The notes under the pieces: generated by a model
Told to the model about the DNA's origin: nothing
The model's database searches: none
What the model saw: the letters and a program-made list of their open reading frames with translations, nothing else
NCBI RefSeq assembly: GCF_964355755.1
Contig: NC_092678.1
Span: forward strand, 18,634,922 to 18,698,921
Origin: Antedon mediterranea
Lineage: Eukaryota; Echinodermata; Crinoidea; Comatulida; Antedonidae
Direction: 5' to 3'
Length of the DNA stretch: 64,000 bases
Shown here: in pieces, positions 63 to 63,851 of the stretch
Layout of the letters: each line of letters starts with the position of its first letter
How positions within the stretch are numbered: the stretch's first letter is position 1
Program-made: the position numbers and the translations under genes

Positions 63-344
63 CAATATACCAGTATTTATTTATTTATTTATAAAAACAT
101 ACAAACAGCAGCACTTTTTAAAGGCTGAAAACGTTTTTAACAAACAAATTAAAACGCATACAATATTACAAGTTTAATAGATAGTTAACATTCATACAAA
201 AATAGATACAATATTATATACAATTGATTTTTACATTTTTTTTTACATTATTAGGCCTATGCCTATGTTGAATTGTTAACAAAAAATGGATCCAGGTGAA
301 AATTAATCATGAACAAGAGGACTAAAAATAATTTCATCTTTCAG

Positions 345-3300: not shown

Positions 3301-4611
3301 CTTAATGCTGGTGTGACTAATTTTACTACAACCATATGTATGCGAATTTAGTGTAATAGTTATGTAACCAGCCTTTCAACTAAAAATAGTTTCAGTTTAC
3401 TAACAATTGAACAGCAACGCCAAAAACAAACGAATTAATTTGAAAAGAAGTAGATTTTAAAAACTACTCGTATCAATATCAATAAGCGCGTCAATCTAAA
3501 TAGCGCCCTCTCATATGTTAAACCTTGTGATATTCATACGATCTCAAGACTATCGATAATCAATGGCAAAATGTATAAGTATATATACATACTTGCTCTG
3601 TATTGTTGTTATCGTACTGATACATTTTTGTGACATAAATAAAAACCCAAACAAAAAATTGTGAAATAGAACGACTCCTGTAGACTATTTTCGCTCATTT
3701 TTGTTAATATATATTATTGTTCAACAGTTCTTCCAGTATTACCAGTTACAATCATTGCAGCTGTTAATTTTAAAGGAACATATTCAAATGAACATTAGTA
3801 AGTTTCTAATATTTACCAGATTTATTTTTTTAATACACGAGCAACCATCTAAGCATAGAATGAATGAAGTAAATTCTGTTAATAACGTTTATCTAGTAAC
3901 AATCAATCGCCTTTGATTATTTCTTCAAATTTCTCCACAGCGGTTTCCGATAATGATTTAAATTCCAAGGCCAAATTCCAAATACCTAGCGCGCCCTCAA
4001 TCTCATATTTGTTCCTGAACTATGAGGGAGACGTTGTTCCCCGTGGGCCACCTTCAATTTCCCAATGCTTTATAGTTTAATTAAAACTTCTTTTTATTTT
4101 TAGTTGTTTTATGAAACCTGGACCCGCGTTATACGGTGGGATATTAGCCATCTCAGCCATCATCCTCGCGATTAATTTCGTCTTATACACACTGATCATT
4201 CGTAAACTGACCTGTCGACGAATAATGACCACAGCAAACACGGCTAACGATAAAGAACTGCCTGTGCGGCGGGTGAGAAACGCCATAGCGATAATGATGC
4301 TGCTTGGTTTAACGTGGATCTTCGGTTTCTTCGCCGTGGATTCTTCTAAGGGAAATCGAATCCTGTTTCAATCGTTGTTCTGTGTGTGTAATTCTTTGCA
4401 AGGATTCTTTATTTTCGTATTGTTTTGTGCTCGGCGTAAGGACGTAAGAGATGCGTGGGCGAAATGCTGCTGCCATTGCAGAGGGTTCTTTACCAGATCA
4501 GCATCAGAACAACGCTATACAAGCGTAGAGAAGACAACAGATGCTACAAATACCCAGACGAGTGGTGGTGGACTTGGATTGATTGTCCCCATTCCCTTAA
4601 CTACTCGCTAA
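345..4611 (+). CDS. Adhesion GPCR copy A (5' end outside window)
   Basis: Seven exons are visible: 345-491, 667-1206, 1423-1578, 2129-2241, 2573-2835, 3728-3797 and 4104-4611 (598 codons plus stop). All have AG/GT borders and compatible phases. The first two exons are the GAIN domain (VKITEENAE..., then ITNFTVNVVSN...). The third is the GPS, with CVFWDFELENGQGDW and the cleavage motif CDHLTNF. The rest encode seven membrane helices ending in RRKDVRDAWAKCC and a Ser/Thr-rich tail. The helix motifs LRGKRPQRILVNLC, LLHYFVLTTLFWMLVEAVNM and LLGLTWIFGFF are typical of family B2 receptors, closest in my judgement to the ADGRG (GPR64/GPR126-like) group. By family knowledge, GAIN autoproteolysis leaves a tethered agonist starting at TNFAVIL. 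The exons equivalent to B1-B8 should lie upstream. The cytoplasmic tail (SGGGLGLIVPIPLTTR) differs from B and C. Confidence 0.9.
1423..1578 (+). CDS. Copy A GPS exon
   Basis: This 156-nt phase 0-0 exon encodes 52 residues. It has the four GPS cysteines, two conserved tryptophans (FWDFE and GDWSNEGC) and the autoproteolysis tripeptide His-Leu-Thr. The donor is gtttgt rather than gtaag, as in both paralogues. By my count it differs from the copy B exon at 10 of 156 positions. Confidence 0.92.
2129..4611 (+). CDS. Copy A seven-helix domain (4 exons)
   Basis: Exons 2129-2241 (TM1, phase 2 end), 2573-2835 (TM2-TM3), 3728-3797 (TM4 and start of extracellular loop 2) and 4104-4611 (loop 2 cysteine in HYCFMKPG, TM5-TM7 and tail). 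The short TM4 exon ends at 'catta' before gtaagt, so the loop-2 Tyr codon is split across the intron. The stop is TAA at 4609-4611. Confidence 0.88.
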
Positions 4612-4953
4612 GTGGCTCCAACTTAAACTGCTCACCACTACAAATAATGAAATGTAAATGAAATATGTTCAGGAGTGGAAATAGAAGATTCAATTAGGTT
4701 GAAGCCCGCCCTCTATAATTCATTCATCCGCCATGCATAATACACTTACATTTGTTCATGCTCTTTTTAATGATTCAATCCATTCAACACACAGTCATTG
4801 TTTTATTATTACACACACCTGATGTATTATTACATTTTTTACTGTTTTTCGATTTTCAGCACAAAACCTCACCGCTTGAATAGGATGTAAAAAGTTAGCC
4901 TAAGACTATAAGTTTTCCCGCGGAGAAGGCGCACTCAGTAGTTCATTCATTGG

Positions 4954-5010
4954 AAGATTGACTGCTCTTTTTAACTCGGCTTCGTTTTGTTAAATAGAGC
5001 AGTCAATCTT
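4954..5010. repeat. Inverted repeat / hairpin
   Basis: AAGATTGACTGCTCT (4954-4968) and its exact reverse complement AGAGCAGTCAATCTT (4996-5010) are separated by about 27 nt. It lies 340 bp after the copy A stop, so it could sit in the 3' UTR or be a small foldback element. Confidence 0.6.
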
Positions 5011-5177
5011 TTAACTGAGGAAATGTTTACCACTCAACCCCATTATTTGTTTAAACTTAGGTGAAGTATTTTCTAAACACAACAAGATTAAACATTGACA
5101 ACAAATTCATCGAAATAATTCCAGCAAGTTCAAATCTTGCCCATTGTTTTGAAATACCACTAAATTCGATATCAATC

Positions 5178-10600: not shown

Positions 10601-13600
10601 TTAGGGGATTTTATTTTCAGACACTTTAATTGTGTTTTTCCTGGAATCACCCTATTTAAAGACCTGGTGATCTTCCGTATTAATCCAACTATGTTCACAG
10701 AATGGAATCTGATATGACACATTAACTACATCACTGGATGTTTGTGTTATTAGTAGGAACACAGCTCAGTGTTTAGATCCGTTTCTTTAGAGTTATGTAT
10801 AATTTAGCATCGTGTATTTTCTTTATCTGTAGAAATTCGCAATTCATTTCCTAAGAATACATACCTACTCATCATCTTAATGCGTTTGTTGTTAACGGAA
10901 GTAATATAATACAAATTAATAAAGGGAAAGTGATCATCTAACGTTTTGAATGACTAACAATATATTTGGTGGTGTTTACTATTTACTAAGTATAGACCAC
11001 CACTATTAATAAAAAACAATCACAGCAATTATTTTGTTTACAGACTATGTAAAACATAGGCCTAAAGTTATGCGAATGACCACCAAACCTCTCTTTTTCG
11101 GCGTAAACAAATGTGGGATTTAATTTATTAATTTACATAACATAGCAATAGTAAAGAGTATAAAAAGTAGAATTTTCATGTGCACACCAGGGTTTTGTGG
11201 GGTTAATTTATAGGGCCGATTATCAGTATGGCGCTGTATTTTTATGTGTCCAGTATCAGGAAAATAATATAATGTTTATAATGTAATATCAGTGTTATGA
11301 CAAGTGCTGTATCGAATAGGAAATACACTTTCCTAAACACAGGCGCCACATATGTGACACTGTATTACATAATTTGCCTATTGCAATGATAACATAATGC
11401 CATTTGGTGAAACAGTCCTTCAATTACATTTTTAAACACTCACTGTATTAACACTGTTTAATACATCACACAACATGCACTTCTTCAATAACTCTGGTAC
11501 AAATGTAAACGAACAACAAGTACAATCGTATACTATATCATGTCTATCACTATTTGTTTGTATTATTATATCATGTTTGAGATGTTCAGCGATATCACAC
11601 ACGTGTGTACTGACGTCGATGTAAACAAAAATCCAACTTACTGAGTGTAAAGGCATTTTGAGTAACATTTTGGTCGACGACCACCCACAGATTTAACCGG
11701 TTATTTCGGAGCACAAATTGATCAGAAACGCGGTCCCGTTATTTTTATCTCTTTTTAATCGATTTTTAAATAACCGGTTAATTTGCGTTATGCAGCAGAA
11801 ATAGATCAAAATCAAATTGCGGTAGAGCAAATTATTTCCGTATTGTCTTCAAATACTTACGTATACGTAGACGTATAAATCATTTTCAATTAGACTACTC
11901 ATGGCATTTCAAAGTAACAATAACGTAACTTATAATTCAATCAATACAACAAACAGTACGTAATGATCAATTATTTTATAAATACTCGCTGATTTTTTAT
12001 TGCTATTAATACATGCTTAAATATCCCGTTAAATATGCCTACCAACATGGCTGACGTCATCACCCCATGGAAAACATCGGGTTAATGCCCTAGTTCAGAC
12101 TGCCGTTTAAGCATAGAGGAAATAGTTATGATAATAGGACCCAAGTTAATTCATGGTTAGAGTAATAAAAAATATTTAATTATATTCTGTACAATACTTA
12201 TACAAAATATACATAAGCTTAATACTATTATGGTACCAATTGTTGAAGTCATATGATTATTGTATTGATTGAGTTAGTAGAAAATATAGTTTCATTCTAA
12301 GAAAGGCGAGCACAATGGCAAAAACGTTGGTAAAATAGGCCCACAGTACCTTATCTATCTCAGATGAAACGTAGATTTGATAATATTAGTATTTATCACT
12401 AACCATGCACATTAGCCTACATTATGCATATATTAGTATAGTTAGTTTGCTATTTATACGTATAACACATCGATTATTACTATTTACACTAAAATAAGTT
12501 GATGGCTATAACGTCAAAAGAACATGCGAAGGAAGCACTATGCATCTCTCCTGTGAAGAGGGTGGTACCTTGGACATCGAAAGTGCACTATACGGACGAA
12601 CCAGTCGACAACTTTGTCCACATTCTAGCCAGAATCTGCCGTGTGACGGAGTCGACGGGCTCCAAATAGTGCGCGCAGCCTGCCAAGACGAAAACGCATG
12701 CTCTGTTGGCGCAAGAAATGGTGTGTTTGGTGACCCTTGTGTAGGAGTATACAAATATCTTGAAGTGTCATACAGGTGTGTAAGACGTAAAGGTGAGCTT
12801 CAAAAAACCGGAAAGTAATGCTATGACGTCACATTTGCCATCAGTTTGCTATCTGCTAGCTTTTTATTAAATCGATGATGTTGGTGGTGGGTAGAATTTT
12901 TACAATTCTAACTCAATTAAATATTTCATAGTAGTCATACATTTAAAAAAAATAATATTTTAAATTTTTTAAATTTTTGTCAAACATTGCCTCTAAGTGC
13001 GAACTTTGTTCCTGTAAGAGTTTTTTAAACAAAAAGAAATAAAACACATACATCATCAGGAATACTAACAAGCATATATTATGTCTATTGATATTAATAT
13101 TTTGTTTCTTCTTATCCTGCTTTTAATCATTATACGCGTATTTATAAATTATTATTAATTATTATAAAATTGATATTATCTTTACAATTGACCGCTTTTT
13201 GACGCTTACTGATAGTATTTTTCATATAGATTTGATTAAATATTCCATTTAAAATATTAAACGAATCAAAATGTTATAAAGACGGCAAATTATTAAGCTA
13301 ACACATTTTTTGTCTTGCTATCAAATTTCAGAACATACACGTAAGATAATGCATAGAAAAAAATGTTTGATACTATGACAATTGTTGTGACCGCAAACTT
13401 TGAATAAGACCTTATTGCAAAAGCATAATGCATCTTGCACTAACACGTTTTAAAATGCTTAAAATAATCATGAAGTGGCCTTTTTTTCACACTCGACTCG
13501 TGATATAGGTCTACTGTAATTTAAAGTAAATTATGGAAGAATCGAAATAAACGAGTTATTGTATGATTTTCGAAGTTTTTGTTTGGTGAATTGCTGACGT

Positions 13601-16600
13601 AAATGAATATTGGTTTTTACAGGATGGATTCCAGTGTTTAAGGGTGTGTCTGGCGCTGGAGGGCCACATCTGTACGATCTATGGATAGGGAATACATCGC
13701 TGAATGAACTAAATGACTCTGTTCGTGCTCTTGACGCAAACATCAAAGCTCATTTCAAAAGTCCATTAATAGAAAGGTGGTCTGAATTTCAAGTTCGACA
13801 GGTAATTGCTATTTATATTCTTGACAGCAATTTGACTGTCTAAATAATTATTTAATTACTTCAAAACCTTACATTAGAGAACAATACAACATTCATTAAC
13901 ATCTAAATGTCAGAAAAAGTAAAAGGCTACTTTGACGTAGGTCACGCTTTGACGTAGGTCACGCTTCATTTCTTATCAGATCAGAAAGGTCATAGTTTTT
14001 CTAAAAAAAAATGGCCTAAGACGGCCTAGGCTAAGTTTGCGGCTTTCGCTCTCTGCGGGTGAAATCATGTATTGCAGGCGATGATTTTACACTGCGTAGT
14101 CTGACTACGATATTTAAAACTACGTTAGATCTGCTCGGAGACACTTCGCACTTTGCAGATTCTAATCTTTATAATAGACACTATACAATCTGATTTTGGA
14201 TACTGTAATATATTATTTGCTTAGATATTCAACTTAAGAATACACACGTTTTCTAATGCTTGGGTTTGGTTAGATGCTGATGTCATAAACTAGGCCTACT
14301 TTCTAACAACGTAATTTGGGAAGTCATCAATAGTTAATTGTTCTATTTATAAAAATAATATGTTAGTTATATAAAAGGTTTATAAATATACAAAAGTGGT
14401 TGAACAATTCGTCTCTATTGCTAGGCCCGAGGCTATTTATATAGTTGTATCCGACTTTATTGATACAGATTAAGTTAGTGAAGCTTGGAAGTGACTTTTT
14501 AAGCTGCGTCATTTGTTGTATTTTTACCATGGTGGTAAATTAAACGGTATACTTCAATAGCCTATTGATTGTACTGTCATGATCGCGGTATTGTTGTGCT
14601 TTACAAGTGCGTCTAATAAAAGCCATGAGTGGCCTTTAACTTGGTCTGACATTCAGATGTCAATGACTGTTACATTGTTCTCTGAGCGTTTGAGGTGTGC
14701 CTTAATTATTTAGACATACACATTATGTGATTGTTAAATTAATTCCATTTGATTAGAGGATTGATGTCATAGAACGTACGCTACATGGTGATTATACTGA
14801 TCATATAAAACACACGGCAACAACTAGTTAAATAGCTCTAATCTGGCATTGCCTTATATAAAACATAGGTAAGGTTTTATATAAGGCAACATTAGAGCTA
14901 TTTCACCATCTCTGGAATATCTAAAAAGAAGCCAATGCATGTGTAAAATACCAGGAATATGGAAAACATTATATACTACTCAATGCATGGAAGTCACGTT
15001 TTAACTATGATTTTCGCACATGGAAGTCATTTTATATACGGTAGTTATTCCCAGGTAAAAGATAAGGACGCATTAATTTCTTAGACATTGTGGTCATCCA
15101 GGGCATAATATAACTATTCTAAGGCATGACCTTTGAACTATAATTCTCATGGAAGATTGCATCGCTATTCCCATGATAGATCAGGAAGCATGTTTTTATT
15201 CCCGAGCTTGGAAGTAGTAGTAACATTATTCCCAGGTATAGGCCTAGATAATGAGGAATATTACCGAGATCGAGACGAGGTATGTTTACTTATATATACA
15301 TATATTTCCAAAGGCAAATTTCTAAAAAATAATGATGCTGTGGGTATCAGTGACTGGATCTCAATGGAGATAGGCCTACAAATGAAAAGTAAAACAGCCA
15401 GAAAAGTTAGCAGAGCTTTCGGGAAACACTAGCCTTTCCTCAGTGCACATTAATTCTAAACCGCCCGGTGAAATTGAATTAATTAATTAATTTGAAACAA
15501 TAAGATGAGGAAATCTGTGAGAATGAGAAAAAGTCTCCCCAACCGAGTTCGAACCCGGAACTTCTGCTTGATATGCAGATGTTCGTACCATTAGCTAAGA
15601 CAACTGGGACTTTCATGGTATAGTTCAATATATACATACACACATGTACCGTCAAAGTTATTTATATCCAATAAAATTGGATAATCTTGTGTATCGCAGC
15701 TTTCTTTTTTTTCCGCTCTTTAGAATTCAATTCTATTTATCTAAACGAAGATCTAAAATCAAACCAATGATGCGATTACCGAAAATGGGATGTAATATAA
15801 AAAAAGTGTTTTGTCAAAGAGCGTTGTTGAAACTGTTGCAAAGTTGGGCGGCTGCTAAACTAACAATTCTAATCCACATACTTCTTAAGCCCCTTCATTC
15901 AATGTTGATTTACCAATTAAAACGATGAGAGAAATTGAAAAACAAAATCAATATTTAAACATAATGTTGCAAGTAAGCATTACATCCGTTTTAGATGTTT
16001 AATATATATTTCAAGTTTTCAACAAAGAATAATTTCTGACACCATGAAGTGGCTCTAACAACATGTCCCTGTGAAATTAGAGTTTCCACGTAACACCAAC
16101 TTTGTATTCATTAAGATTGTACTTTTTCAACAGCTTAAATTTTTAGTTGTGATGCTAAACTAAATTTAATAAGGCCATATACATGATTGAAGTCGCGTGC
16201 GCAAGTTTGAGACCAACGACCGACATAGTGAGCTGTGGAGTCGCATTTTCACGACACTGAAACATCTAAATAATTTTAAGATTAATTTGTTGTTCGGTAT
16301 TTGGGGAGGCTGGTAAGGTATTTTTTTAAATCGCGTCTTTTTTTTTTTTTTTTTTGCAAAGCGCTGTTTTTATTGAACATATTTCCTGGCGTCAATAATA
16401 TAATCTTGTGCGCATCATATTTTATAGGCCTATATGTTTTTTAATAGGTTAAGATTAGATTCTATAAAAATGGAGAAGAAATGGCGTTCATCGACTTCAC
16501 TGGAGAATCTACAGATAAAGAGAACTGGTTTGCCAAAGAAAGAGTAAGAGAAAGTTCGTTCGAAAATATTAAACGAGAGAATACCAATTATTTTTCGATT

Positions 16601-19600
16601 AAAGGGTATGTTATGATACTTTTTCACTTTTTTCTACCGTTCAGTAGGCCTACAAACATTGGTCTACCTTTACCAATACATATACTTGCTTGCTTGCTCG
16701 GAATGCATTATGTAGCCAATTCTATACAATCGAGTATAGCAAATAGTATCAACATATCCCTGCTGTAGTTTTCATCAGAAGAGAAGTTTTGACTAAAACA
16801 AGTGTTTCATTTTATTATTGATAATACAATAGTAGGCTATTATTTATCAATATAAGACATTGTATATAGATACTCTTAATTCGGTTAGTAACACCTGGGC
16901 TAAATAATAATTCTTCGAATCCAGGATATAAACCCGATTTCGGGGATTTAGCGGGCTACCTGTACGGTATCCCTAGTACTACCATACTAATGATTGCGTT
17001 TTGTTTGTCTGTGTTTGTTTTCCGTATGATGGTATCGAAATAAATCAAATAAAATCAAAATTAAAAAAAGGTACAAATGATATAACCTGCCCTTATGTAT
17101 TAATGTAAATCACAGGGTATTACTAAAGAAAGAGAATGATTCGAATTTAAAAATTAAACGATAACCCATTATTTGTTATAACATTTTTCGACTTAATGAT
17201 TAATTTTTGTATAAATATTATTTTATGAAGTAACTTTTACTTCAAGTTAAAACACACAGGGAGACTGATTATCAAACAAGGATTATCGAGATTTTCCAAA
17301 CCTATATTGGGTCAAGTAATGACGTCACATTCGTGTACTTACAAATCTTAAATAATTCTACTTGATGTGACAAAAAATGTGATGGACAGGAAGATGTACT
17401 ATCACTACTATATTTAAGCCTATCACTACCATATTTAAGCATATCACTACCATATTTAAGCATATCACTACCATATTTGAGCATATCACTACCATATTTA
17501 AGCATATCACTACCATATTTAAGCATATCACTACCATATTTGAGCATATCACTACCATATTTAAGCATATCACTACCATATTTAAGCATATCACTACCAT
17601 ATTTGAGCATATCACTACCATATTTAAGCATATCACTACCATATTTGAGCATATCACTACCATATTTAAGCATATCACTACCATATTTAAGCATATCACT
17701 ACCATATTTAAGCATATCACTACCATATTTGAGCATATCACTACCATATTTAAGCATATCACTACCATATTTAAGCATATCACTACCATATTTAAGCATA
17801 TCACTACCATATTTAAGCATATCACTACCATATTTAAGCATATCACTACCATATTTAAGCATATCACTACCATATTTAAGCATATCACTACCATATTTGG
17901 GCATATCACTATCATATTTAAGCATATCACTACCATATTTAAGCATATCACTACCATATTTAAGCATATCACTACCATATTTAAGCATATCACTACCATA
18001 TTTAAGCATATCACTACCATATTTAAGCATATCACTACCATATTTGGGCATATCACTACCATATTTAAGAATATCACTACCATATTTGGGCACAGAGCCT
18101 TAGGTTTTATCTAAACTAATTATTGCTTCTATTGCAGACATTCTAACAGTGATGTACGTCGTCAATTCTTTACTAACAAAAATTATGGAGGCTGTGAAAA
18201 CGACTACGGATGGACTGTTGTTGTATCGCAAGATGGAAATTGTATGTGGGAACGTAAACAAACTGAGTACCCCTTGATTATGTATTCACCCGTACCAAAC
18301 GGTGTACTTTGGCAATCTGGTAAGTAATACCTGCTATTTAAAGATATATTGTACCCCTGAAGAAAAAAATATTTTTGTTCAATATGGCATATTAATGTCA
18401 CACAATAGTTATCCTCTTTTACCAAAAATTTGACCGAAAAAATGTATTTACCTGAAAAAAAAGTGCTTTAAAGCAAAAAATATGAAAATTGATTGAATTT
18501 AATCATTTATTTTGTCATTTTTTAAGTGAAAATATTTTTTTTTTTCGTTTTTTTCTATGGAAGTGATTAACTTAAAACTTAAAACTACAAAATAACCTTT
18601 CTAAAGTTTGATATAAGTAATCTTCAATTTTCTGGTTTTTGAGGACAATACATCTTTAAATTGTAAAGGCTAACGATCTGGAAAAAAAATCTGAACGATA
18701 ACACAATGAGAAAAGGTGACCAAATTGAGATTTGAACACTAAATTTTCTGTTTGATAATAATGTAGACATTCTACCATTAGAACACTGAATTTCATCATT
18801 ATACACAGGCTCACAGAAAAGTAACATAATAAGCTTAATTTACTAGTGACGTAACGCAATGACGCAAGCAAGTTCACCAATGGCAAGCGACAGTTCAAAT
18901 AATTGTTTGTGGTCAGTCAAATCACTAATGCTTGATTCCCACTGGAAAAGCAACACAACAACACAAGCGATAAATTATTCGAACAGTCGCTTGTCATTAG
19001 TCAATTCGCTTGCGTTGCGTATACGTCTTTGTATAGCATCCTAGTTGACCAAGCTTTATATTGTGCTTACGGCCTTGTGTTGCGTCTCCAGCTCCAGCTC
19101 CCATAGTTAAAGGTTGAACAAAATTAAAACATCACACTGCAGGCTAGGGTTACGGAACTAAAATCATGAATTATGTACAAGTTTATGCACATCAATACAG
19201 TAAAGGCAACAAGCAGTGTAGCACAAGTTCAATTCTTGGAATGTTTGTTTTATTAGAATGTGGAGAGGTCAGGTAGGGATTAAAGTAAACTTCGCAGTTT
19301 GAACATTATAACAAAACCCAGACGATCTTACTAGACATTTGAAGCAGAAATCAAGAACAATACGTTATTTTCTATATTAAGAATTTACAAACCAACATAT
19401 TTCTTAAACATATCTGAACAACCTATCTTTCTAAATTATCTCTCGTAACTAATTACACTTCTCTTAAATCACCGCCACTAGATTATCTTTATTTTAATAT
19501 GTTAATACGGTATAATTAAGTCTCAATTTTCTATAAATCAACAAGGTAAAATACAAATAAAAGTGTATAGCATGGTACGTAAGAACGTGAGTCTCAACGA

Positions 19601-22600
19601 GTAAACACCAGGATTGAAATCAACGGATACTTATTATTAGGCATAGGCCTACATTATTAAAATATATTTACTTAAGTTTTTTCTCATTTAAAATGAACAT
19701 TCTTTAATACACAGATGATCCAGGTATCGCAGATTTTATGGCGATTTTCTTAGAATTTACAGGTAAATTTATTTCATTCAATACTTTACGAATATTTATG
19801 TATCTCAATAAGTAATTAATAACTTACTTAACATAATTTAATTCACAATAAGCAATCTTCTAACTTTAAAAAAATATTCCAAACGTTAAAAATGTGTGTT
19901 TGTTCAACGTTGTCACTTTTTCTTCTTTTTTCACTGCTTTATAGACACTTGTCAACACGAGGTTGTATTAATTAATGGCGTGACGTACACGTTCGAAACG
20001 TCTCCATCGGAATTTTTGGCTCATTCGCTCGAGTTGTGTAGCTTTGAAAGTAAGGTTTAAAATACATTAGAGTAGTGCTTAGTCACAATCGTAATAGTTA
20101 CCGTATGGTTTACAAACATCAAACTATAATTTTTGATTTATATAACCAACAAAGCTAATATTATACCTCTACTTGATAGCTCCACTGGCAGTGCGCATGT
20201 GCAATATTGACCCCCGTGGAGGAGGTGTCTGGGGAGAAGTAACGGTTCAGCCATGTACAACCTATACCATCAGTGATCTGGCAAAGGTAACCATTGTATT
20301 TATACATCTTCGACAAAATTGAAATGTGGTCGTTTTATCTTACTAAGTTTCATTTAAATATATTTCACACAACATATTATATATAGATTTTGTAATGATA
20401 AATATTAAATAATGATACATTTGATTGTTCGTGGAGATTTCACTAATTCATAATGGTTTTACGTCTGAACCTCCAGGTAAAAAAACATTAAATATTATGA
20501 TGACTGAGATCAACAAGAAAAAAAAATACATGCAACAATAATAAGTTATTATAAGTGCAAGAAAAACAAAACAAACAAAATAAACAAAAAATATGATGCA
20601 TAACTGAATTAATAATTGTTTAAGTAGAAAAAAATCACACAATAGATTGTTCTTGGGTAACATTTTTAACAAAACTATTTATGAAATAAGTAAGCTTTGG
20701 TTCATGACGTTCCATTTCACCAATATTGTTCATCAACCTGCTGAACAAGAGGGATAACTTGTATTTAATTTGATCTTCCCTTATAGGTTGACATAACTGA
20801 AGAAAACGCTGAAGAAGTTGCTATGCAACTATCGACCCTTACGAGTGAAGAGAATATGGACAACGAAGTTAACATTGATGACGTTGCCTTGATTCTAGAA
20901 GGATTAACTGGAGTTGGAGCAGGAAATGAAATGGTAAGACAACTTTTAACTGTTTTAACTGTATTGGAAGCAGTTAATGAAATAAGCGATTTTTTGACAA
21001 AAAAATAATTTTTGAAAAATTACTGACCCAAAATATTGTAAATATTTCAATAAAGTAAAAATCAGACTAGAATATTGAGAAGCCTTCTACGTTTTTAAGT
21101 GCCCAAAAGGTTAAAGAAATTCAATCTATAGAGGGCGGTTTGTATAAAAGCGGAGACTTTCCGACTCGAGTTTCTTCATTTGTAAGTTGGTGATGTTGAT
21201 TTAAAACAACTTTATTGTTAATGTTTAAAAATTCACATTTTTTTTAGATTACTGGTTTGACGGTGAATGTTGTGAGCAACATTCAATATGCTGATGATGA
21301 TGTATTCACTGCAGACAATAACAGTATGAGTGCGGCTTCCAGTATCGTTAAGTCTCTAGAAACTCAGATTGGATCTGTCTCGAACTTTAAAGGCGTTGAA
21401 AACAATTTAGCTGTGCAAACTAAACAATATCTCCCTGAGGCACTCCAAAATGGAATCGGATTTGCTTCTCTTGAGCCTGAAAATACTGAATCTGGTCTGC
21501 AAGAAGAAAATATTGAAACATTTGAAGATGTAGAGGATTTTCTAATGGATATGATAGAAACATCAATAGCTTTGCCTCCTGAAATTGTTGAGTTAAATCA
21601 GGATCAAACCGGATCAAACCAGATACAAGTTAGCTTTATCGTGTACCAGACATCCAAGTTATTTGCATCGAATCGTCTAATGTCCAATCAAGATAGAGCA
21701 ATTGGAAGTCGTGTCATTTCGGCTACTGTTGAAAAGGTCACTGTCGAAGGTTTATATGAGCCAATCAGAGCCGCATATTTACCAGTTTTGGTAAGTTACA
21801 ACCTTGCATGTTATTTATTTTTAAAAGAAGTGTCCACGTATAGACACTGTAAATTATAGCTCAAAATTTAATGGTTTTTTTTAATTTAAAAGAAAAACAT
21901 ATAAATTACATTTTAAAAAGACTCCATGTTGTGTTTATGCTTTAACTGTTCTAATATCACAGGAAGATGTATCTGGTAATCCTGAATGTGTTTATTGGGA
22001 CTTTGAGTTAGAAAACGGTCAAGGTGATTGGTCAAACGAAAGCTGCTACTTCAATAAAACATCAGACGGTCGTATCGTCTGCTTCTGCGATCATTTAACA
22101 AACTTTGCTGTTATCATGGTTTGTAATTGTAATAATTAAATTTGAATATAATAAAAAAAGAAAGAAAACATTACATTAAACTTGTTTGGATTGTAAATGA
22201 TTGATAATGTTTTTTTTATAGCTAGAATGCTCCTTGTACTATTACGTTAAATCTTCAATAGACTTTCAAAATTTGTGTTGTCTAACGATCTTCCCGGACC
22301 TTCTTGGACTCAACCCCACCAATTACAGTCAATAATTACAGTTATCATGTTGCTTTTCATTGTTTAAGTCAAGATAAAATCAATTTATTTAAGTTGTTGT
22401 TCCTGCACTTTTATGCTTGTTGTTGTACTTTTATTTAGCTATAATACTATTTATTTTCTTATAAATGGGTGGTATTACGTTCAAATCTATTTTGACTTTT
22501 TTATCTTTATGTAAACATTTTAAGCTCTGTCTACACTATCAAAACTAGTTTGACAACAAAATTGAGATGTACACAAATATGGTATGACATCATCGTGTCC

Positions 22601-25600
22601 GTTATGGGTACATCACATTTTTATGTCACAAAACGTTTGATAGTGTAGACAGATCTTTACAGCGTTTTCCGTAATTATTCCACTATCTTTGTGCATGTTC
22701 TTCAAATACTATATTCTCTGTTTTCTTTGACAGGATTATTCTGGACAAGCAGGTCCGACCACAACATTCCAAGATGCTCTAACATACATTAGCATCATTG
22801 GTTGCGTCATCTCTATAGTTTGTTTGGTGATCACGATTATTACGTTTACATACTTTAGGTAAGATCGATTAAATATTCATCATAAAAAGCATTGTCATTA
22901 ACAACATACCCTAATATATATAACTATAAACATTTCCCATGTTGTTGTTATGGTGATTTGCCTAAATATGGTAGTGATATGACATCACCATGTCCATATA
23001 TGGGAACATCACATTTTTTGTCACATACAGTTTGGTATAATTGTGAACAAAGGATCGTGATCGCATTTATAATCATAATTATTATTTTTATTTATAATTT
23101 ATAATTATATAATTATAAATAATCAACGGATTGTTCCCTGAACTAGATTTTACAGTTATAGTCACTTTTATTGTAAGCAACGAGCTTCATTACAATTAGC
23201 ATAACACCATCAACACAATGTCTACAACTTGTACTATTAAAACCGAATAAACATAATGACGATTAAGTTTATATTTCGTGATTACCACCAAAAGTTATTG
23301 ATAACTAGATGGTACGCTCGCTTCGCTCGCGTACCATCTAGGTCGTGCCCACAGATGGTTCTCGAATACATAGTAATTTCAGCGTTTAAAAAACTGGCGA
23401 CTTCAAATGCACATGCAGGACAATAATACATGTTGTTTACAGGAACGAATAAATAGACACGGTGATTTATGTACTCAACTAAAATTAGCACCCCGGGAAT
23501 TACTTCCGAAAAAGAAGTTTGTCACAAAATAAGAAACAAACTGAATTTGTGTTTTGTATGTAACATTTGGGTTGAGGGATGGGGAAGAGGATGGATGCAA
23601 AGACGAACAATTTTTAAATATATTCTTTATCGATTTAGTAACGAAATATGAATTGTTTTCATGTTTTACAAATAATATACCAGTAAACACAGTAAAACAT
23701 TGCGATTTAATACTTTGTTGAAACTGTCACCGTCATAGTCGATTGAAATAGTACAGTACATGTAACGATACATCACTCTAATACGACGTTTATATTTTTT
23801 TGAAGTTACATGATTACAAACGTTCAGAAGGAACTGTCAGTAATATATTAAACACCTCTAATCGCGGCAAATCGTAAATTCGCTTTAATCGTCAATAAAT
23901 AATTATCTAACTCAACTTAATTAGTAGGCCTAATGGTCAAGTGTTTCATAGAGCCAATTATGCTACCCAACTTGTATTGAAAATTAAGTTGTTTCCTAAC
24001 CACCAAAGTTGTTCTGCGTTTAGGGCATGTACTGATCATTCGTACTGTAGGCCTGTCCTCTACTGACTTTACAACGCTACTCATGCCAGTGAGGGGAGGG
24101 TGGTGATGTTGGTGGTGGTTTAGCTGCAATAATAAAGTTGATTGTACATAATAGACGGCGACTGGAAAGGCTAGCTCATTATGCGTTAAAAAAAAAGGAT
24201 TCCACAGATTGGAAAAAAATGTATCGAATTTCTGTTATGACTGTACAGTACTTGTCTTTACGACGCCTGAGGGAATAGACACTTGTGGAACAGAGATTGG
24301 AATGTTCCATTTATCGCAGATCAAAACATTTGTATAAACGTATATTAAATCTATCAAAATAGTATTTTTTAAAGAAAATCGGCCTGTCTTCAACATTATG
24401 ATGCTGTACTCGAGCTGTTCAACCGGTTTTCAGTTATTATAAACAATTATCGTAGGAGGAGATAGGGAAATGCGAAGCATCCTTGCATTATTGTCTGCGG
24501 GTATTTTTCAAGTTAGACATCCATTAGACAGTGTATACCACGACCACGAAACACCCTATTTGGGGCAAATCGTTGAACCTAAATTCGTTTTAATTGTCAA
24601 TAACTAATTATCTAACTCAATTTAATTAGTAAACATGGTTACATCAGATGGTTAAAATCAGTACCGAAAGTACGAACCAACTTTATATACCATCGAGTAA
24701 AAATTCTAGAAATAAACTGCGATTTATCGAATTTTGCCCTTACGTAAATTTATATATAGATAACTGCATTATATTTACATTTTTTAGGCACCTGCGTGGA
24801 AAACGTCCCCAGCGTATACTAGTAAACTTGTGTTTTTCTCTGCTTTTCCTATACACTACATTTGTGATCGGTATTGAGTTAACTACATGTTACTATTGCT
24901 GTATCGTGGTAGCCATTCTCCTACATTACTTTGTTCTCACAACACTTTTCTGGATGCTTGTCGAAGCCGTGAACATGTACTTAAAGTTTGTTTTAGTATT
25001 TTACGACGAAGTACGTTTTTTCATGTTGAAGTCAGTTTTAGTTGGCTGGGGTAAGTTGACACCAAGTCCTATTTTGTTACTGTATATTTGTCGATGGCAT
25101 TTATATAACATAAAATGTATTACATTAATATAAACAAAAGGGTATTTAGTTTGACGTGTTAACAACACAATTTGATTGTGTACTGTCCAATAGACGCCAA
25201 ACATTATTACGCAGTCAAGCTTGGTTTCCATGACACTGGGAGGCAACGCAATGGCGTAAGCTTAACGCAAGCGAATTGACCAATGAAAAGCGATAGATTA
25301 TTCGAACTATCGCTTGTTATTGGTTAAACATGCAGTGGTAGTAGCAACCCGTCTTAAGGGTATTATTTTTATTTCCAACAGTTCTTCCTATCATACCAGT
25401 TACAATCATTGCGGTTTTGGATTATGAAGATACATATTCTAATGACGAGTAGTAAGTTTCTCTTTTTGTTTTTATATTTGATTTTTGAAAGCAGGCAAGA
25501 GCAACTGAAATTATATTCGCGCGGATGGTTTTTAGAGAGCTGGATGTGCATTGGGTTTGTTTATTTAGGATTCGAAAGTTTGCGCCCGAGACTGTACAGT

Positions 25601-26399
25601 TTGCGCCCGAGACTGTACAGTTTGCGCCCGAGACTGAACAGTTTACGCCCGAGACTGTACAGTTTGCGCTCAAAACTGGTATTAATGCTGAAAAGTGGTA
25701 TTATCACAATCTAGTATGTTTTCGTACAGTAGATTTTCGAATTCAATTCATTCTCCGTCGAATTGCATACTTGGGCTTGAAAAAGAAAAATGCTCATGCG
25801 CACTGATCGCTATTAAAATTAACCAGGCTAATTAACATATTTTCGTTAAACAAATGTGTTACATACAACGTTACACAGTGATGGTTTTACTGATAATTTT
25901 GTTTTTTTCCATTTCCAGTTGTTTTATGAAACCGGGATACCCATTATACTTTGGATTATTAGTAATCTCAGCTATTGTTCTTGTCATTAACTTCGCCATA
26001 TACGTACAAATCATTCGTAGGCTGACCTGTCGACGAAGAGTAACAAAAATAAAGACGGACAAAGACAAAATGAACGAACTCGCTGTACGCGTACAAAACG
26101 CCATAGCGATAATGATGCTGCTTGGCTTAACGTGGATCTTCGGATTCTTCGCCATAGATTCATCCGAGGCGGTTCGTGATTTGTTCCAATTGTTATTCTG
26201 TGTGTGCAATTCGTTACAAGGATTTTTTATTTTCTTGTTATTTTGTGTTCGTCGCAAGGATGTCAGAAATTCTTGGGCCTACAGTTGCTGCAGCATCGGT
26301 GAAAAGCCTGGAATATTCATGACTACTACGTCACGACAACGCTATGCAACTGAGAAAACGACTGTTTCAGGGAACTCAGTCAACCAAAGTAAAGCGTGA
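7560..26399 (+). CDS. Adhesion GPCR copy B, lectin-bearing (complete)
   Basis: Fifteen exons join in frame to 980 residues plus stop: 7560-7644, 12499-12792, 13623-13801, 16448-16605, 18138-18319, 19715-19762, 19945-20049, 20180-20286, 20787-20933, 21248-21790, 21963-22118, 22734-22858, 24788-25050, 25382-25451 and 25919-26399. The start is the ATG of a signal-peptide exon. The domain order is signal peptide, SUEL-type lectin, an uncharacterised WIPVFKGVSG module, a hormone-receptor-motif-like segment, GAIN, GPS (CDHL/TNFAVIM) and seven helices. The tail ends ...SRQRYATEKTT...NQSKA. The receptor should sit in the plasma membrane, with a cleaved but retained ectodomain; the tethered peptide is split by the intron after TNFAVIM. 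Ligand and G protein cannot be read from sequence. The family B2 call is strong. The exon 2 acceptor (aaaataag) lacks a polypyrimidine tract and is the weakest junction. Confidence 0.88.
11690..11810. mobile_element. Small foldback element related to the 5.2-kb MITE
   Basis: TTAACCGGTTATTT near the left and AAATAACCGGTTAATT near the right are inverted. 'GCAGCAGAAATAGA' at the right resembles the terminal 'CAGCAGAAACAG' of the larger element. It looks like a degraded relative. Confidence 0.45.
12298..12385 (+). repeat. Dispersed repeat, copy 1
   Basis: It contains GGCGAGCACAATG...AAAAAC, CTTATCTATCT and AAACGTAGATTTGATAA in the same order as the reverse complement of 50470-50578. It is non-coding, with no diagnostic ends seen. 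Confidence 0.55.
12499..12792 (+). CDS. SUEL-type galactose/rhamnose-binding lectin exon (copy B)
   Basis: A single 294-nt phase 1-1 exon encodes a whole Gal_Lectin (SUEL) domain of about 95 residues. It starts with GYNVKRTCEGSTMHLSCEEG, has the ANYGR-like motif ALYGR and the C-terminal signature DPCVGVYKYLEVSYRC, with the cysteines expected for the family. Family members bind galactose or rhamnose; the same domain heads latrophilins. It is absent from copy C, whose corresponding intron is only about 300 bp. The acceptor AG is preceded by purine-rich sequence, so splicing may be inefficient or regulated. Confidence 0.88.
13623..19762 (+). CDS. Copy B N-terminal WIPVFKGVSG module (4 exons)
   Basis: Exons 13623-13801, 16448-16605, 18138-18319 and 19715-19762 encode about 190 residues. 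Landmarks are GWIPVFKGVSGAG, LYDLWIG, ALDANIKAHFKSP, RWSEF, a basic/aromatic strand VKIRFYKNGEE, NWFAKERVRES, NYGGCENDYGW, CMWER, IMYSP and DPGIADFMAIFL. From memory this resembles the C-terminal region of invertebrate secreted proteins annotated 'uncharacterized skeletal organic matrix protein 5'. No function is established. It looks like a compact beta-rich extracellular domain with a paired Cys (GGC and NC). Two introns carry large insertions, including the 21-bp minisatellite. Confidence 0.75.
13931..13966 (+). repeat. Two-unit tandem duplication
   Basis: TTTGACGTAGGTCACGC is repeated twice in direct tandem in copy B intron 3. It is simple and short. Confidence 0.8.
14830..14903. repeat. 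Long near-perfect hairpin
   Basis: Left arm AAATAGCTCTAAT..GCCTTATATAAAAC (14830-14864) and right arm GTTTTATATAAGGC..ATTAGAGCTATTT (14874-14903) pair over about 30 bp, with a few unpaired bases (CTG) and a loop under 10 nt. It lies in copy B intron 3. The size and shape fit either a microRNA precursor or a tiny foldback transposon. Confidence 0.6.
15531..15612 (-). repeat. tRNA-like sequence (tRNA relic or SINE head)
   Basis: On the minus strand the sequence has complementary ends (AGTCCCA and TTGGGGAGACT), an A-box-like TCTTAGCTAATGGTACGA, a perfect five-pair anticodon stem TCTGC/GCAGA around loop ATATCAA, and a B box GGGTTCGAAC. The acceptor arm has a bulge and the T loop is one base short, so it is a relic or SINE head rather than a working tRNA. 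Confidence 0.4.
17389..18095. repeat. 21-bp minisatellite, about 33 units
   Basis: Near-perfect tandem copies of a 21-bp unit (ATATTTAAGCATATCACTACC) fill about 700 bp of copy B intron 4. Variant positions are mostly TTAAGC, TTGAGC or TTGGGC. The left flank (GATGTGACAAAAAATGTGATG) and right flank (TTTGGGCACAGAGCCT) match the inside of the local GTCTACACTATCAAAC MITE, which carries one or two copies of the same unit. The unit is a multiple of three and free of stops in several frames, so long meaningless frames cross it on both strands. Confidence 0.92.
18845..19070. mobile_element. Foldback MITE family 2, copy
   Basis: It carries the family words GCTTGATTCCCACTGG, ACGCAAGCAAGTTCACCAATGG, TCGCTTGTCATTAGTCAATTC and GCTTGCGTTGCGT in inverted arrangement, ending near GACCAAGCTTTA. 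It is probably one element inserted beside or into another. Confidence 0.55.
19945..20286 (+). CDS. Copy B hormone-receptor-motif-like exons
   Basis: Exons 19945-20049 and 20180-20286 encode TCQHEV...GVTYTFETSPSEF...LELC, then AVRMCNIDPRGGGVWGEVTV and QPC. The spacing of 'TF.TSP', 'ELC', 'R.C', 'G.WGE' and a final Cys resembles the Cys/Trp segment that precedes GAIN in many adhesion GPCRs (HormR-like). In other receptors the domain is structural or modulatory. The family assignment is moderate. Confidence 0.6.
20787..21790 (+). CDS. Copy B GAIN domain exons
   Basis: Exons 20787-20933 (VDITEENAEEV..., the helical subdomain) and 21248-21790 (ITGLTVNVVSNIQ...GFASLEP...VSFIVYQTSKLF...GSRVISATVEKVTVEGL) are both in phase 0. 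The pattern VISATV...V.GL..PI just before the GPS is the standard GAIN subdomain B. The same two exons occur in A (345-491, 667-1206) and C (32705-32851, 33811-34359). Confidence 0.85.
21963..22118 (+). CDS. Copy B GPS exon
   Basis: A 52-codon exon with CVYWDFELENGQGDW, two further Cys pairs and CDHLTNFAVIM, so autoproteolysis between Leu and Thr is expected. The donor is gtttgt. It differs from the copy C exon at only 5 of 156 positions, with about 110 nt identical in a row. Confidence 0.92.
22521..22660. mobile_element. MITE family 1 (GTCTACACTATCAAAC ends)
   Basis: AGCTCTGTCTACACTATCAAAA at the left is mirrored by TTTGATAGTGTAGACAGATCT at the right. Inside is CAAATATGGTATGACATCATCGTG, the segment that seeds the minisatellite. 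It lies in copy B intron 11, between the GPS and TM1 exons. Confidence 0.75.
22734..26399 (+). CDS. Copy B seven-helix domain (4 exons)
   Basis: Exons 22734-22858 (linker DYSGQAGPTT and TM1), 24788-25050 (TM2-TM3), 25382-25451 (TM4) and 25919-26399 (TM5-TM7 and tail). Motifs: HLRGKRPQRILVNLC, LTTLFWMLVEAVNMYLKF, LPIIPVTIIAVLDY, EYCFMKPG, NAIAIMMLLGLTWIFGFFA and LFCVCNSLQGFFIFLLFC. The first intracellular and extracellular loop 2 cysteine patterns are those of adhesion receptors. The stop is TGA at 26397-26399. Confidence 0.9.
22950..23030. mobile_element. MITE family 1 internal fragment
   Basis: CCTAAATATGGTAGTGATATGACATCACCATGTCC...GGGAACATCACATTTTTTGTCACA matches the interior of family 1. 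Clear terminal repeats are missing. Confidence 0.55.
23282..23490 (-). mobile_element. Helitron-like 3' end
   Basis: Read on the minus strand, the sequence ends with the perfect hairpin ATGGTACGC...GCGTACCAT followed by CTAGT. That is the hairpin-plus-CTRR end with a T 3' of the insertion point used by Helitrons. The preceding 150 bp match 45615-45757 on the plus strand (e.g. ATCACCGTGTCTATTTATTCG, CGCCAGTTTTTTAAACGCTG). It lies in copy B intron 12. Confidence 0.5.
25216..25345. mobile_element. Foldback MITE family 2, copy
   Basis: It starts AAGCTTGGTTTCCATG and contains AACGCAAGCGAATTGACCAA and the inverted pair GCGATAGATTATTCGAACTATCGC. Its right end is degraded. It lies 35 bp upstream of the copy B TM4 exon. 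Confidence 0.65.
25574..25672 (+). repeat. 21-bp minisatellite, five units
   Basis: Five tandem units of GTTTGCGCCCGAGACTGTACA, the last ones with substitutions, lie in copy B intron 14. The unit is unrelated to the 17.4-kb array despite equal length. It is GC-rich against the background. Confidence 0.9.
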
Positions 26400-28540: not shown

Positions 28541-28622
28541 ATGAAGGAACATCTTAGTACCTGTTCGTGGATACTGCTACTTGTTTCAGTGTTCCTTGTG
28601 CACGGTCAACAAGAAGAAACAG
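28541..28622 (+). CDS. Copy C signal-peptide exon
   Basis: MKEHLSTC, the hydrophobic core WILLLVSVFLV, then HGQQEET, ending in phase 1 before gtaagc. The only in-frame exon able to follow within 300 bp is the WIPVFKGVSG exon, so the lectin exon of copy B has no counterpart here. Confidence 0.85.
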
Positions 28623-31600
28623 GTAAGCATAGTAAATAATTATAATAAACAGTTGACGAGTTTTTCAATACAGTCTTATAACGTTTACGGTATTTTAGAA
28701 TAACTAGTGTATAAGTAAGATATTCTTAAACTCAATATTACTAACTAGTTGTTTTATAACACACCTGCATGCTACCGAAACCAAGCTGTAGTGGGAGCTA
28801 ACTAAGCAATTTTTTTTTGACTGATAATTCAAATTTTATAAATCATAAATGAAATAGATAGAATAAGTACATAAATCGATTGATTATTGATTATTGATTT
28901 ATTTGCTATGGTTATCTTCATCTACAGGATGGATTCCAGTGTTTAAGGGTGTGTCTGGAGCTGGAGAACCAGATCTGTACGATCTATGGATAGGGAGCAC
29001 ATCGCTGAATGAACTGAATGACTCGGTTCGTGCTCTTGACGCAAACATCAAAGCACACTTCAAAAGTCCATTGGTAGAAAGATGGTCTGAATTGCAAATT
29101 GAACAGGTATGCTTTAAACTCTGTCTACACTTTGAAATTAGGTTGACAAAAAAGTGTGAAGTGACCAAATATGGTAGTGATATGCTTAAATAGGGTAGTA
29201 ATATGATATTCAACATGATGTCCATATGGACACATCACATTTTTTTCCTCAATCCTAAAACTCAATTTTCTAATTGCTTTGCAAAATAGAATGTTGCCAA
29301 GTATTATAGTAACTGCATTGTTACTAGGCAAAATAGAATTTGGTTAAGTTGGCCTATAGTACTTGCTTTGTTAGTTTGTTAGCACGATAACGCCTACATT
29401 TTTCAAGTTATCATTCTGAAAATGTCGGTGTGTACTGTACTATAATTGTATTCTTTTAACATAATAATAATATCAACATACGTCTTCTGTAGAAACAGTT
29501 TGGAAAGTACTTCACTCAGTTTCTGAGTTCATTTATGTTTAACAATTATATAATATATATTATGAATGATTATAATATTTATCTGAAACCAAAAGGAAAT
29601 CTCAGAAGAAAAAATGTTTTAAATTTTAAATGAAAGAAATAAATGTATATTTGATTTGAGTTTAATATACACCAGTCATCATCTATTTAAGATAATAAAG
29701 TTATGCATACAACGGAAAAAATGTATTTTTGTCTATTGCTAGGCCCAAGGTTATTTATAGTTTTATCGAACTTTCTCCTATTGTCACTGAAAACTAACAT
29801 CAACATTTACTTTTAAGCTGAATCATAGTTAATAATTTCACGATGGTAATAATGTTAATGGCATTTTAGTTGTCTGTCGATTCTTTTGTAAACATTTGTT
29901 TTGGCTAGTCAGTAGGACCACCAAGGTGGTTTATTACCTAAGTAGTTACACGCTGTCAACAACATAATTATTTTACATTTGGCATTCTCGTTGTTTGAGA
30001 TTTTAGATCGTTATCTGATCGTTTCAAATCAGGCTTTGTGAATCTAACATCGTAAAACTAACATTTTCATAATAAACTAATTCAATTATTCTATAGCATT
30101 GGTTTAAAAAATAGAATTGTAATTATGTTAAATGTACAGGACCCCCGAAGTAGAAAAGTAGACTTTTTTATCTCTTCCTAGGCCAGAACAGAAAGCTTCA
30201 ATTGTTACCCATTTCACCAGGCCATTCAAACAAATATTTTACTATTATTATTCAAACACTTATTAATTGTTAGTTAAAAAACAATATCTCAAAATTATTT
30301 AACCAGTTTGAGCTAGACCAGAATTGAACTAAAGTATGTTTTTGTATATTTTGAAATTTTTCGTGTGTGGGTTTTATTTTATTTATAATTCTTTTCCGTA
30401 TAATATCAAACATGCAACATACAACAACATTGTATGCACACCGTTTATGTATGTTTCTGTTTTACTCCAGGTTAAAATAAGTTTTTATAAAAATGGAGAA
30501 GAGGCGGCTTTTATCGAATTCGATGGTGAATCTTCAGATAAAACAAACTGGTTTACCAAAGATCGAGTAAGACAAAGTTCGTTTGGAGATTTGCGCAATA
30601 AAACAACCAACATTTTTTCAATTCAAGGGTATGTTCTACTTAATAAAATAATATTTGAAAATATAATATTAATAATAGATAAATCACACAGGACTATTGT
30701 AATTTGGGGGTGGGGGCGGGGTGATATGAAAAAAAAAGTTTTAGGCTCGGCGACTTTTTTTATTGCTATTATTATGTGCTTTACAAATTGTTTGTAATTC
30801 AGAGATCATAGAAGTTTTGTTCGTCGACATTTCTTTGTAAACAAAGCATATGGAGGTTGTCATAGTGATTACGGATGGAGTGTAGTGGTAACTCTGGGGT
30901 ATTGTCAGTGGGGACGAAAACAAAGAGATTACCCTTTGATTATGTATTCACCAACACAAAATGATGTCCTTTGGTCATCCAGTAAGTATGCTGATGTTTA
31001 ATTGCCAACGGTAAAATTCATGTTTGGGCATATCACCACCATATGTGGTTACATCAAACTAGTTTGATAGTGTTGACAGAGCTTTATTCCAATCATTCAA
31101 TATTTTCATAATTATTATGCACAGGTAATCCAGGTATTGCAGACTTCGTGGCTATTTTCTTGAAACTTCAAGGTAATTAAAATACAATGAACCTATAATA
31201 TATGTGAACAAAATATGTGGTGTGCCCATATATGGACATGATGATGTCATATCACTACCATATTTGGGTATATCACTACCATATTTGGGCACATAACACT
31301 TCTTTTGTCAAACTAGTGTAGACAGAGCTTAATGAGATGGATTAACTTTTACTGAAAACTCCTGAAACAAATGTCTTTGTTGCATTTTAATGTACAGTAA
31401 CTATTATGTATTAGTTTTATTATTATCATCGTCATTGTCGATGGTGAGCTTGTTTAAATAATCGTGCAATTTTCCCTCTCTTTTCTATAGATACTTGCCC
31501 ACATGATGTTGTATCAGTAAATAATGTAACGTATACGTTTGAGAAATCTAAATTAGATTTGTTGGCTCATTCGCTCGAGTTATGTATCTTCAATAATAGT

Positions 31601-39531: not shown

Positions 39532-39638
39532 GTCATATTTCATCATATGGCAATACAATTACGTTACTCATCTCATCTATCGTCCTCTTCATCAACATGG
39601 TCATGTTCGTATTAATCATTCGAGGACTGACTTGCCAA
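39532..39638 (+). pseudogene. Orphan TM5-like exon of a fourth receptor paralogue
   Basis: After an AG acceptor the frame reads HISSYGNTITLLISSIVLF, then INMVMFVLIIRGLTCQ, up to a possible donor gtaaag. It aligns along its length with the TM5 segment of copies A-C (LYGG...INF..Y..IIR.LTCRR), including nucleotide identity around 'ATCATTCG...CTGAC(C/T)TG'. No TM4 or TM6-TM7 exons were found nearby and the entry phase differs from the paralogues. It is probably a relic of a lost copy, though a diverged alternative exon cannot be excluded. Confidence 0.6.
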
Positions 39639-63696: not shown

Positions 63697-63851
63697 GTAA
63701 GTATAATGATAATTGTTATTTTCTATCGATTCTACCTTTTTCATATAAAAATATTCAATAAATTCACATAAAATAAAAAATTCACACTTGCCAAACAAGA
63801 CAAAAAGATCAATATCACTTGGCACTCATTCGAACCGGTCTTAAAATAATG

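Follow-up and report, generated by a model that had tools for sequence, protein, structure and literature searches.

An apparently undescribed extracellular module, probably joined to adhesion receptors in four tandem genes of the crinoid Antedon mediterranea

The window analysed here is a 64,000-nucleotide stretch of the Antedon mediterranea genome (contig NC_092678.1, here C9; C9:18634922-18698921), whose assembly comprises 354 Mb in 18 contigs. Four tandem genes, named cp1, A, B and C, lie in the window and upstream of it, and in each of them an extracellular module of roughly 190 residues, spread over four exons (E1-E4), precedes the core of an adhesion G protein-coupled receptor (aGPCR). 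Judged jointly with the whole explanation developed below, it is very likely that E1-E4 form an in-frame part of one aGPCR gene in every copy. The module family looks undescribed in Pfam and in the PDB, and the module looks like a class 1-1 exon-shuffling unit that is not specific to receptors.

Gene anatomy and the join of module and receptor

The exons of gene B, together with the signal-peptide exon of gene C, were mapped against 104 kb, made up of the window and four loci upstream of it. The exon order E1-E12 is kept in all four genes. Genes B and C lie inside the window, the modules of cp1 and A are found at C9:18.599 and 18.622 Mb, and gene A extends into the window. The first-pass annotation had counted two complete copies, a number that has to be raised to four. 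The models of cp1, A and C are open over their full length, signal peptide and stop included, with 874, 880 and 885 residues, and the model of gene B has 854 residues counted from E1. After addition of the exon for the fifth transmembrane helix (TM5) and of E12, each of the four models holds a single stop, which is terminal.

In gene B (all features on the plus strand) the module exons are E1 at 13623-13801 (phase 1 in, phase 0 out), E2 at 16448-16605 (phase 0 in, phase 2 out), E3 at 18138-18319 (phase 2 in, phase 1 out, with the YGGC..D.GW motif) and E4 at 19715-19762 (phase 1-1, GIADFMAIFLEF). The start of E1 and the end of E4 coincide with the module span proposed earlier, 13623-19762, and the motifs named for it (WIPVFKGVSG, LYDLW, NWF, YGGC..DYGW and MYSP) are all present, in E1, E2 and E3. 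E4 is the probable last strand of the module; it is similar to the stretch ADVFAIFVEH, which follows E3 in L006, a distant module. A four-cysteine segment labelled HormR-like is encoded by E5 (19945-20049) and E6 (20180-20286), followed by the GAIN domain and GPS (CFCDHLTNFAVIM) in E7-E9 (20787-22118; GPS E=3.2e-15, GPR128 GAIN subdomain B E=6.8e-5). The seven-transmembrane (7TM) region and the stop are supplied, in the assembled model, by E10, E11, the TM5 exon (25382-25451) and E12, which together span 22734-26399 and match 7tm_2.

Gene C, on the same strand, starts with a signal-peptide exon at 28541-28622 (phase 1 donor) and continues with E1 (28928-29106), E2 (30471-30628), E3 (30803-30981) and E4 (31125-31172). 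Its E5-E12, with the HormR-like segment, GAIN, GPS, 7TM and stop, occupy 31491-37457 (Pfam 7tm_2 2e-44, GPS 8.6e-15). Of gene A, the window holds the 3' half, E7-E12, at 345-4611 of the plus strand, its signal peptide and E1-E4 being upstream (C9:18619513-18630072).

All junctions from E1 to E11 are of the AG/GT type with compatible phases in the four copies. The expected phase entered the selection rule for the E3, E4 and E6 acceptors and the E4 and E5 donors, and motif and phase served to locate the boundaries of the signal-peptide exon, the TM5 exon and E12; phase having been used to choose them, these junctions are consistent with the model and are not independent tests of it. In gene B the module is in frame with the downstream GPS (E=3.2e-15) and 7tm_2 (E=2.4e-20) exons, and E3 and E4 terminate at phase-compatible splice donors in every copy. 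The placement of the module upstream of GAIN and 7TM is thus borne out by the in-frame join and the constant exon order.

A SUEL/rhamnose-binding lectin exon lies ahead of the module of gene B (12499-12792, plus strand). The domain itself is a true SUEL lectin (PF02140, E=1.7e-23; 83.2 bits against a cut-off of 31.4), and by its position and phase we infer that the exon belongs to gene B. The order given earlier (lectin, module, HormR-like segment, GAIN, 7TM) would accordingly apply to gene B alone, no lectin having been found for the other three genes; among 27 SUEL matches in the genome, one falls in the cluster. The exon might instead come from another gene or be a stray insertion, all four receptors then sharing the same simple layout. 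The mapping of cp1, A and C, which yielded no lectin, would agree with this, as would the failure to find a convincing signal-peptide exon upstream of the lectin. Such an origin is nevertheless unlikely, though it keeps some weight, given that the exon is open and scores 83 bits, that phase-1 splice sites are available at both of its ends, and that the filter for start candidates returned none between the lectin and E1.

Constant order by itself could also arise if a gene for a secreted module and an adjacent aGPCR gene had been tandemly duplicated as a unit, the joined model being an artefact. The intron between E4 and E5 measures 235 bp in cp1, 1987 bp in A, 182 bp in B and 318 bp in C, and the short introns of cp1, B and C leave little space in which one gene could end and the next begin. 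In gene C, where the E2-E3 intron has 174 bp, E4 is flanked by introns of 143 and 318 bp, so that here, as in the 182 bp of gene B, there is almost no room for a 3' untranslated region, a promoter and a signal-peptide exon. No in-frame ATG was found upstream of E5 in B, C or cp1, and the donors that close E3 and E4 in the four copies likewise speak for continuation into the receptor. On this evidence a pair of separate genes is very improbable, and so is the outcome named earlier as a refutation, namely that the module exons belong to a gene of their own.

Several observations weigh against the single gene. The chief of them, limited to one copy, is that the 1987-bp intron of copy A holds an in-frame ATG with a hydrophobic run (C9:18632060) which reads directly into E5, as the two-gene arrangement would predict; it is possible that this is an alternative start of a module-less receptor, in copy A only. 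If E3 or E4 is left unspliced, the frame beyond the donor reaches a stop within 2-34 codons in every copy. This fits two genes, and may represent an alternative unspliced end, so the read-through test favours neither reading. The signal-peptide exon of gene B has only a weak candidate, at 9495, and E4 taken alone (15 codons) shows a ratio of nonsynonymous to synonymous substitution rates (dN/dS) above 1 in one pair, cp1-A. Among the module relatives elsewhere in the genome, discussed below, no E3 donor was located in L006, and L005 gave E1 and E2 only, with no E3.

Across E1-E4 as a whole, the pairwise dN/dS is 0.26-0.45 in all six pairs of copies, and E1-E4 therefore evolve as coding sequence. 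The values are similar in GAIN (0.20-0.55) and lower in 7TM (0.14-0.23). Similarity between the copies, E1-E4 included, is mostly restricted to exons, the exceptions being cp1 against A and an intron repeat common to B and C. A 21-bp minisatellite (CATATCACTACCATATTTAAG-like, by eye) occupies part of the intron between E2 and E3 in gene B (window ~17400-18090), and a short stretch of it recurs near 31232-31297 in gene C.

The synonymous rate (dS) of E1 (window 13623-13801 and 28928-29106, and copies cp1 and A) is 0.08-0.42, versus 0.43-1.30 in E2 and E3, and most of the intron sequence that flanks E1 is unalignable between the copies; either short gene conversion or an extra constraint at the DNA level may account for this synonymous conservation. 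From E7 on, cp1 and A are 84-90% identical, introns included (window 301-5026 vs C9:18606481-18611421), and their module halves match mainly in exons. This pattern would fit recombination or conversion that made the receptor core uniform and spared the sensor half.

The module and its family across the genome

No Pfam family was found on the modules of B, C and cp1, and residues 1-287 of gene C gave no Pfam match at E up to 1. When 11 members of the module alignment (A2) were scanned, four families appeared, each in one member, with a best E of 0.021, and were taken as chance. The profile search of the PDB with the module returned no match at E up to 5; a single-sequence search gave seven sequences (E of 0.046 or more), which were judged to be chance matches. 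The profile check for a known domain, suggested with the original proposal, thus brought no significant Pfam or PDB match. The invariant positions of A2 include W53, F77, G79, C132, D135, G137, W138 and W150. In prokaryotic and viral sequences, 10 and 15 stretches fitted the search pattern and none was confirmed as a relative, the patterns being derived from four similar receptor copies and liable to miss distant relatives. By comparison of names only, the aGPCR domains tabulated in the available part of PMC12716839 and those in the legend to Fig. 1 of PMC13197933 include none that was recognised as this module. No report of the module or of the architecture was found among the top-ranked matches of the literature searches, which is weak evidence, since subscription papers were mostly outside the search and the domain has no name.

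Within the A. mediterranea genome the module occurs in at least 34 places, four in this cluster and 30 elsewhere. The count is one of clustered matches (33 with cp1 and A merged) and a lower bound, and 5 of the 30 rest on single-exon matches. Module exons were present in all ten stretches fetched, which cover 11 of the 30 other places. In these distant modules the E1 acceptor is in phase 1 in 10/10 cases and the E2 acceptor in phase 0 in 11/11; a phase-2 option exists at the E2 donor in 11/11 and at the E3 acceptor in 9/9, and 8/9 of the E3 donors offer phase 1. The acceptor counts are the stronger ones, as the donors often had several GT options. In the receptor copies, phase 1 is found at the E1 acceptor and at the E3 donor in all four.

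Nine neighbouring exon pieces from five of the ten loci were scanned for partner domains, and Pfam-confirmed domains were found at each of the five loci: kringle and WSC (L005), TSP_1 (L006), F5_F8_type_C (L011 and L012) and PAN_1 (L012 and L013). Two pieces of L012, one of them EGF-like, matched no Pfam family. Given their strand and proximity, the partner exons are presumably parts of the genes that carry the modules. Two further loci, L008 and L009, resemble small secreted proteins with a coiled-coil stretch ahead of the module (by eye). The likeness to secreted proteins, which had been noted for invertebrates at large, is therefore found again within this genome, where relatives of the module lie near kringle, WSC, TSP1, F5/8C and PAN exons.

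EGF, kringle, F5/8C and TSP1 are examples of class 1-1 extracellular shuffling modules. The present module resembles them in having phase 1 introns at both ends and mixed partner domains nearby, and differs from them in that the searches found neither a Pfam model nor a relative of solved structure and in its internal phase 0 and phase 2 introns. Class 1-1 symmetry is described as diagnostic of exon shuffling in the available text of PMC8001218.

Positions of modules and 7TM matches were also compared genome-wide, among the 160 7TM matches listed, with 150 of 367 candidates scored. A second candidate fusion, on contig C3, with 38 kb between module and 7TM, was rejected, as the 7TM lies in a separate frame of 673 residues, together with a different cysteine-rich ectodomain (by eye, in a reading that leaves out C3:14046001-14061000). 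This 7TM gene (L018, C3:14036001-14046000) is an unrelated one, and its ectodomain is of a cysteine-rich, somatomedin-B-like kind, all in one open frame (by eye).

The receptor core and its relatives

By their 7tm_2, GPS and GAIN features, the four genes are predicted to encode aGPCRs. In the Pfam scans of B, C and cp1, 7tm_2 was matched with E-values of 2e-44 in gene C, 2e-42 in cp1 and 2.4e-20 in gene B (cut before TM5), and GPS with 3.2e-15 in B, 8.6e-15 in C and 9.7e-17 in cp1. GPR128 GAIN subdomain B passes its cut-off in B, in C (by 0.2 bits) and in cp1; the general GAIN model, PF16489, stays under its cut-off in B and cp1 and is unlisted in C. The motif HLTNFAVI(M/L) is intact in the four copies, and a GPS with a cleavable HL/T site and a tethered agonist is predicted from it.

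Among solved structures the predicted core is nearest to ADGRG6, which aligns from GAIN into 7TM, and not to a latrophilin; ADGRG6 ranks first in the PDB search (6.1e-45), ADGRG2 follows (4.4e-36), and ADGRL3 is among the matches at 1.8e-30. The arrangement of a GPS with tethered agonist below a string of N-terminal extracellular domains is that of ADGRG6/GPR126 and of the other group VIII (ADGRG) receptors. The N-terminus of ADGRG6 carries CUB, PTX and SEA domains, whereas here a module without a Pfam match is found.

The first-pass label HormR-like for the E5-E6 segment gained no support from the domain searches. Four cysteines are conserved across six sequences of the segment, and none of these six matches HormR (PF02793) at E up to 5; single members matched two further families (best E 0.029). 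The PDB profile search with the segment gave only one unrelated match (E=0.53), and thus no credible one.

Vertebrate latrophilins (ADGRL1-3) share with gene B a SUEL/rhamnose-binding lectin upstream of the GAIN-7TM core, and that gene B is latrophilin-like, with the module in place of olfactomedin, would account for the sequence of lectin, further domain and core and for the ADGRL3 match, but this is the least probable of the alternatives, since the lectin is found in one of four paralogues, ADGRG6 and ADGRG2 outscore ADGRL3, and the pieces of gene B that were scanned match neither HormR nor olfactomedin.

Four receptor relatives lie outside the cluster on the same contig, with GAIN domains 53-57% identical, and upstream DNA was taken for three of them (L015, L016 and L017). 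The ADGRG-like relatives L016 and L017 (GAIN 53-54% identical) keep the same E5-E8 as the four-gene cluster but have an EGF-like exon upstream instead of E1-E4, none of which was found within the stretch fetched. The EGF-like assignment is weak, with a Pfam E-value of 5.4e-4 in L016, just under the cut-off, and a score below any cut-off in L017. For L015, the most similar relative, only E7-E8 and retroelement frames were found in the upstream DNA; a match to E4 (E=0.013) falls inside a retroelement frame and was taken as chance. That an ADGRG-like receptor gained the module by class 1-1 exon shuffling would be a fitting account of these layouts. It is also possible that the module was lost in the relatives and not gained here.

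Retroelement frames adjoin module and receptor loci (by eye), a gag-like zinc-knuckle frame at L014 and reverse transcriptase-like frames at L015 and L017. More GAIN/7TM exons related to these, with GAIN 35-41% identical and in the same orientation, are clustered at C9:18.71-18.99 Mb. Downstream of gene C, the window holds an E12-like 7TM fragment at 39564-39638 (60% identity, E=5e-4), perhaps a receptor remnant, and a run of EGF-like exons at 52446-63758 (by eye).

Proposed architecture and its meaning

The layout suggested for each gene is a signal peptide, the module (E1-E4), a short cysteine segment (E5-E6), GAIN with GPS, and 7TM, to which gene B probably adds the SUEL lectin exon before the module. 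The module presumably folds independently and would be a class 1-1 shuffling domain reused beside other domains of secreted proteins. It may have been placed on an ADGRG-like receptor at the position where the relatives carry the EGF-like exon, and then duplicated along with the receptor.

According to the available part of PMC12716839, aGPCRs release their N-terminal fragment at the GPS when a ligand binds, and have a tethered agonist. If the four genes are expressed as modelled, their GAIN domains would self-cleave at HL/T, and the module would bind a matrix, surface or secreted ligand from its place at the tip of the resulting N-terminal fragment. Such binding is suggested by the module's terminal position, its reuse near domains of secreted proteins, and its constraint. 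Once the fragment is pulled or displaced, the tethered agonist TNFAVI(M/L) would be exposed and would activate the 7TM domain.

A bolder proposal, which we put forward tentatively and regard as unlikely, sees in the module an undescribed domain that binds ligands and has been shuffled widely among the secreted proteins of invertebrates. One ADGRG-like branch of receptors would have taken it as a new ligand-binding head; secreted and receptor copies would then recognise one class of matrix or glycan ligand, and might do so by binding each other. If this were true, what the receptor senses would be the condition of the extracellular coat of the animal itself.

The aGPCRs are known for exchanging their extracellular domains, and the small receptor family described here has probably gained an extracellular sensor of a new kind. 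Surveys of aGPCRs name domains from profile libraries, as the available parts of a 2025 study (CDvist; PMC12716839) and of a study in sponges (Pfam; PMC4302439) indicate, and would overlook any domain for which no profile exists. At the present locus a profile-less domain occurs in four genes, and its shuffling signature can be read in a single genome from the class 1-1 phases, the mixed partners and the relatives that lack the module. The locus yields a defined construct for ligand screens, as well as a profile with which the domain can be sought in other places. With about 34 places and no match in Pfam, the module family may prove more widely useful than its fusion to a receptor.

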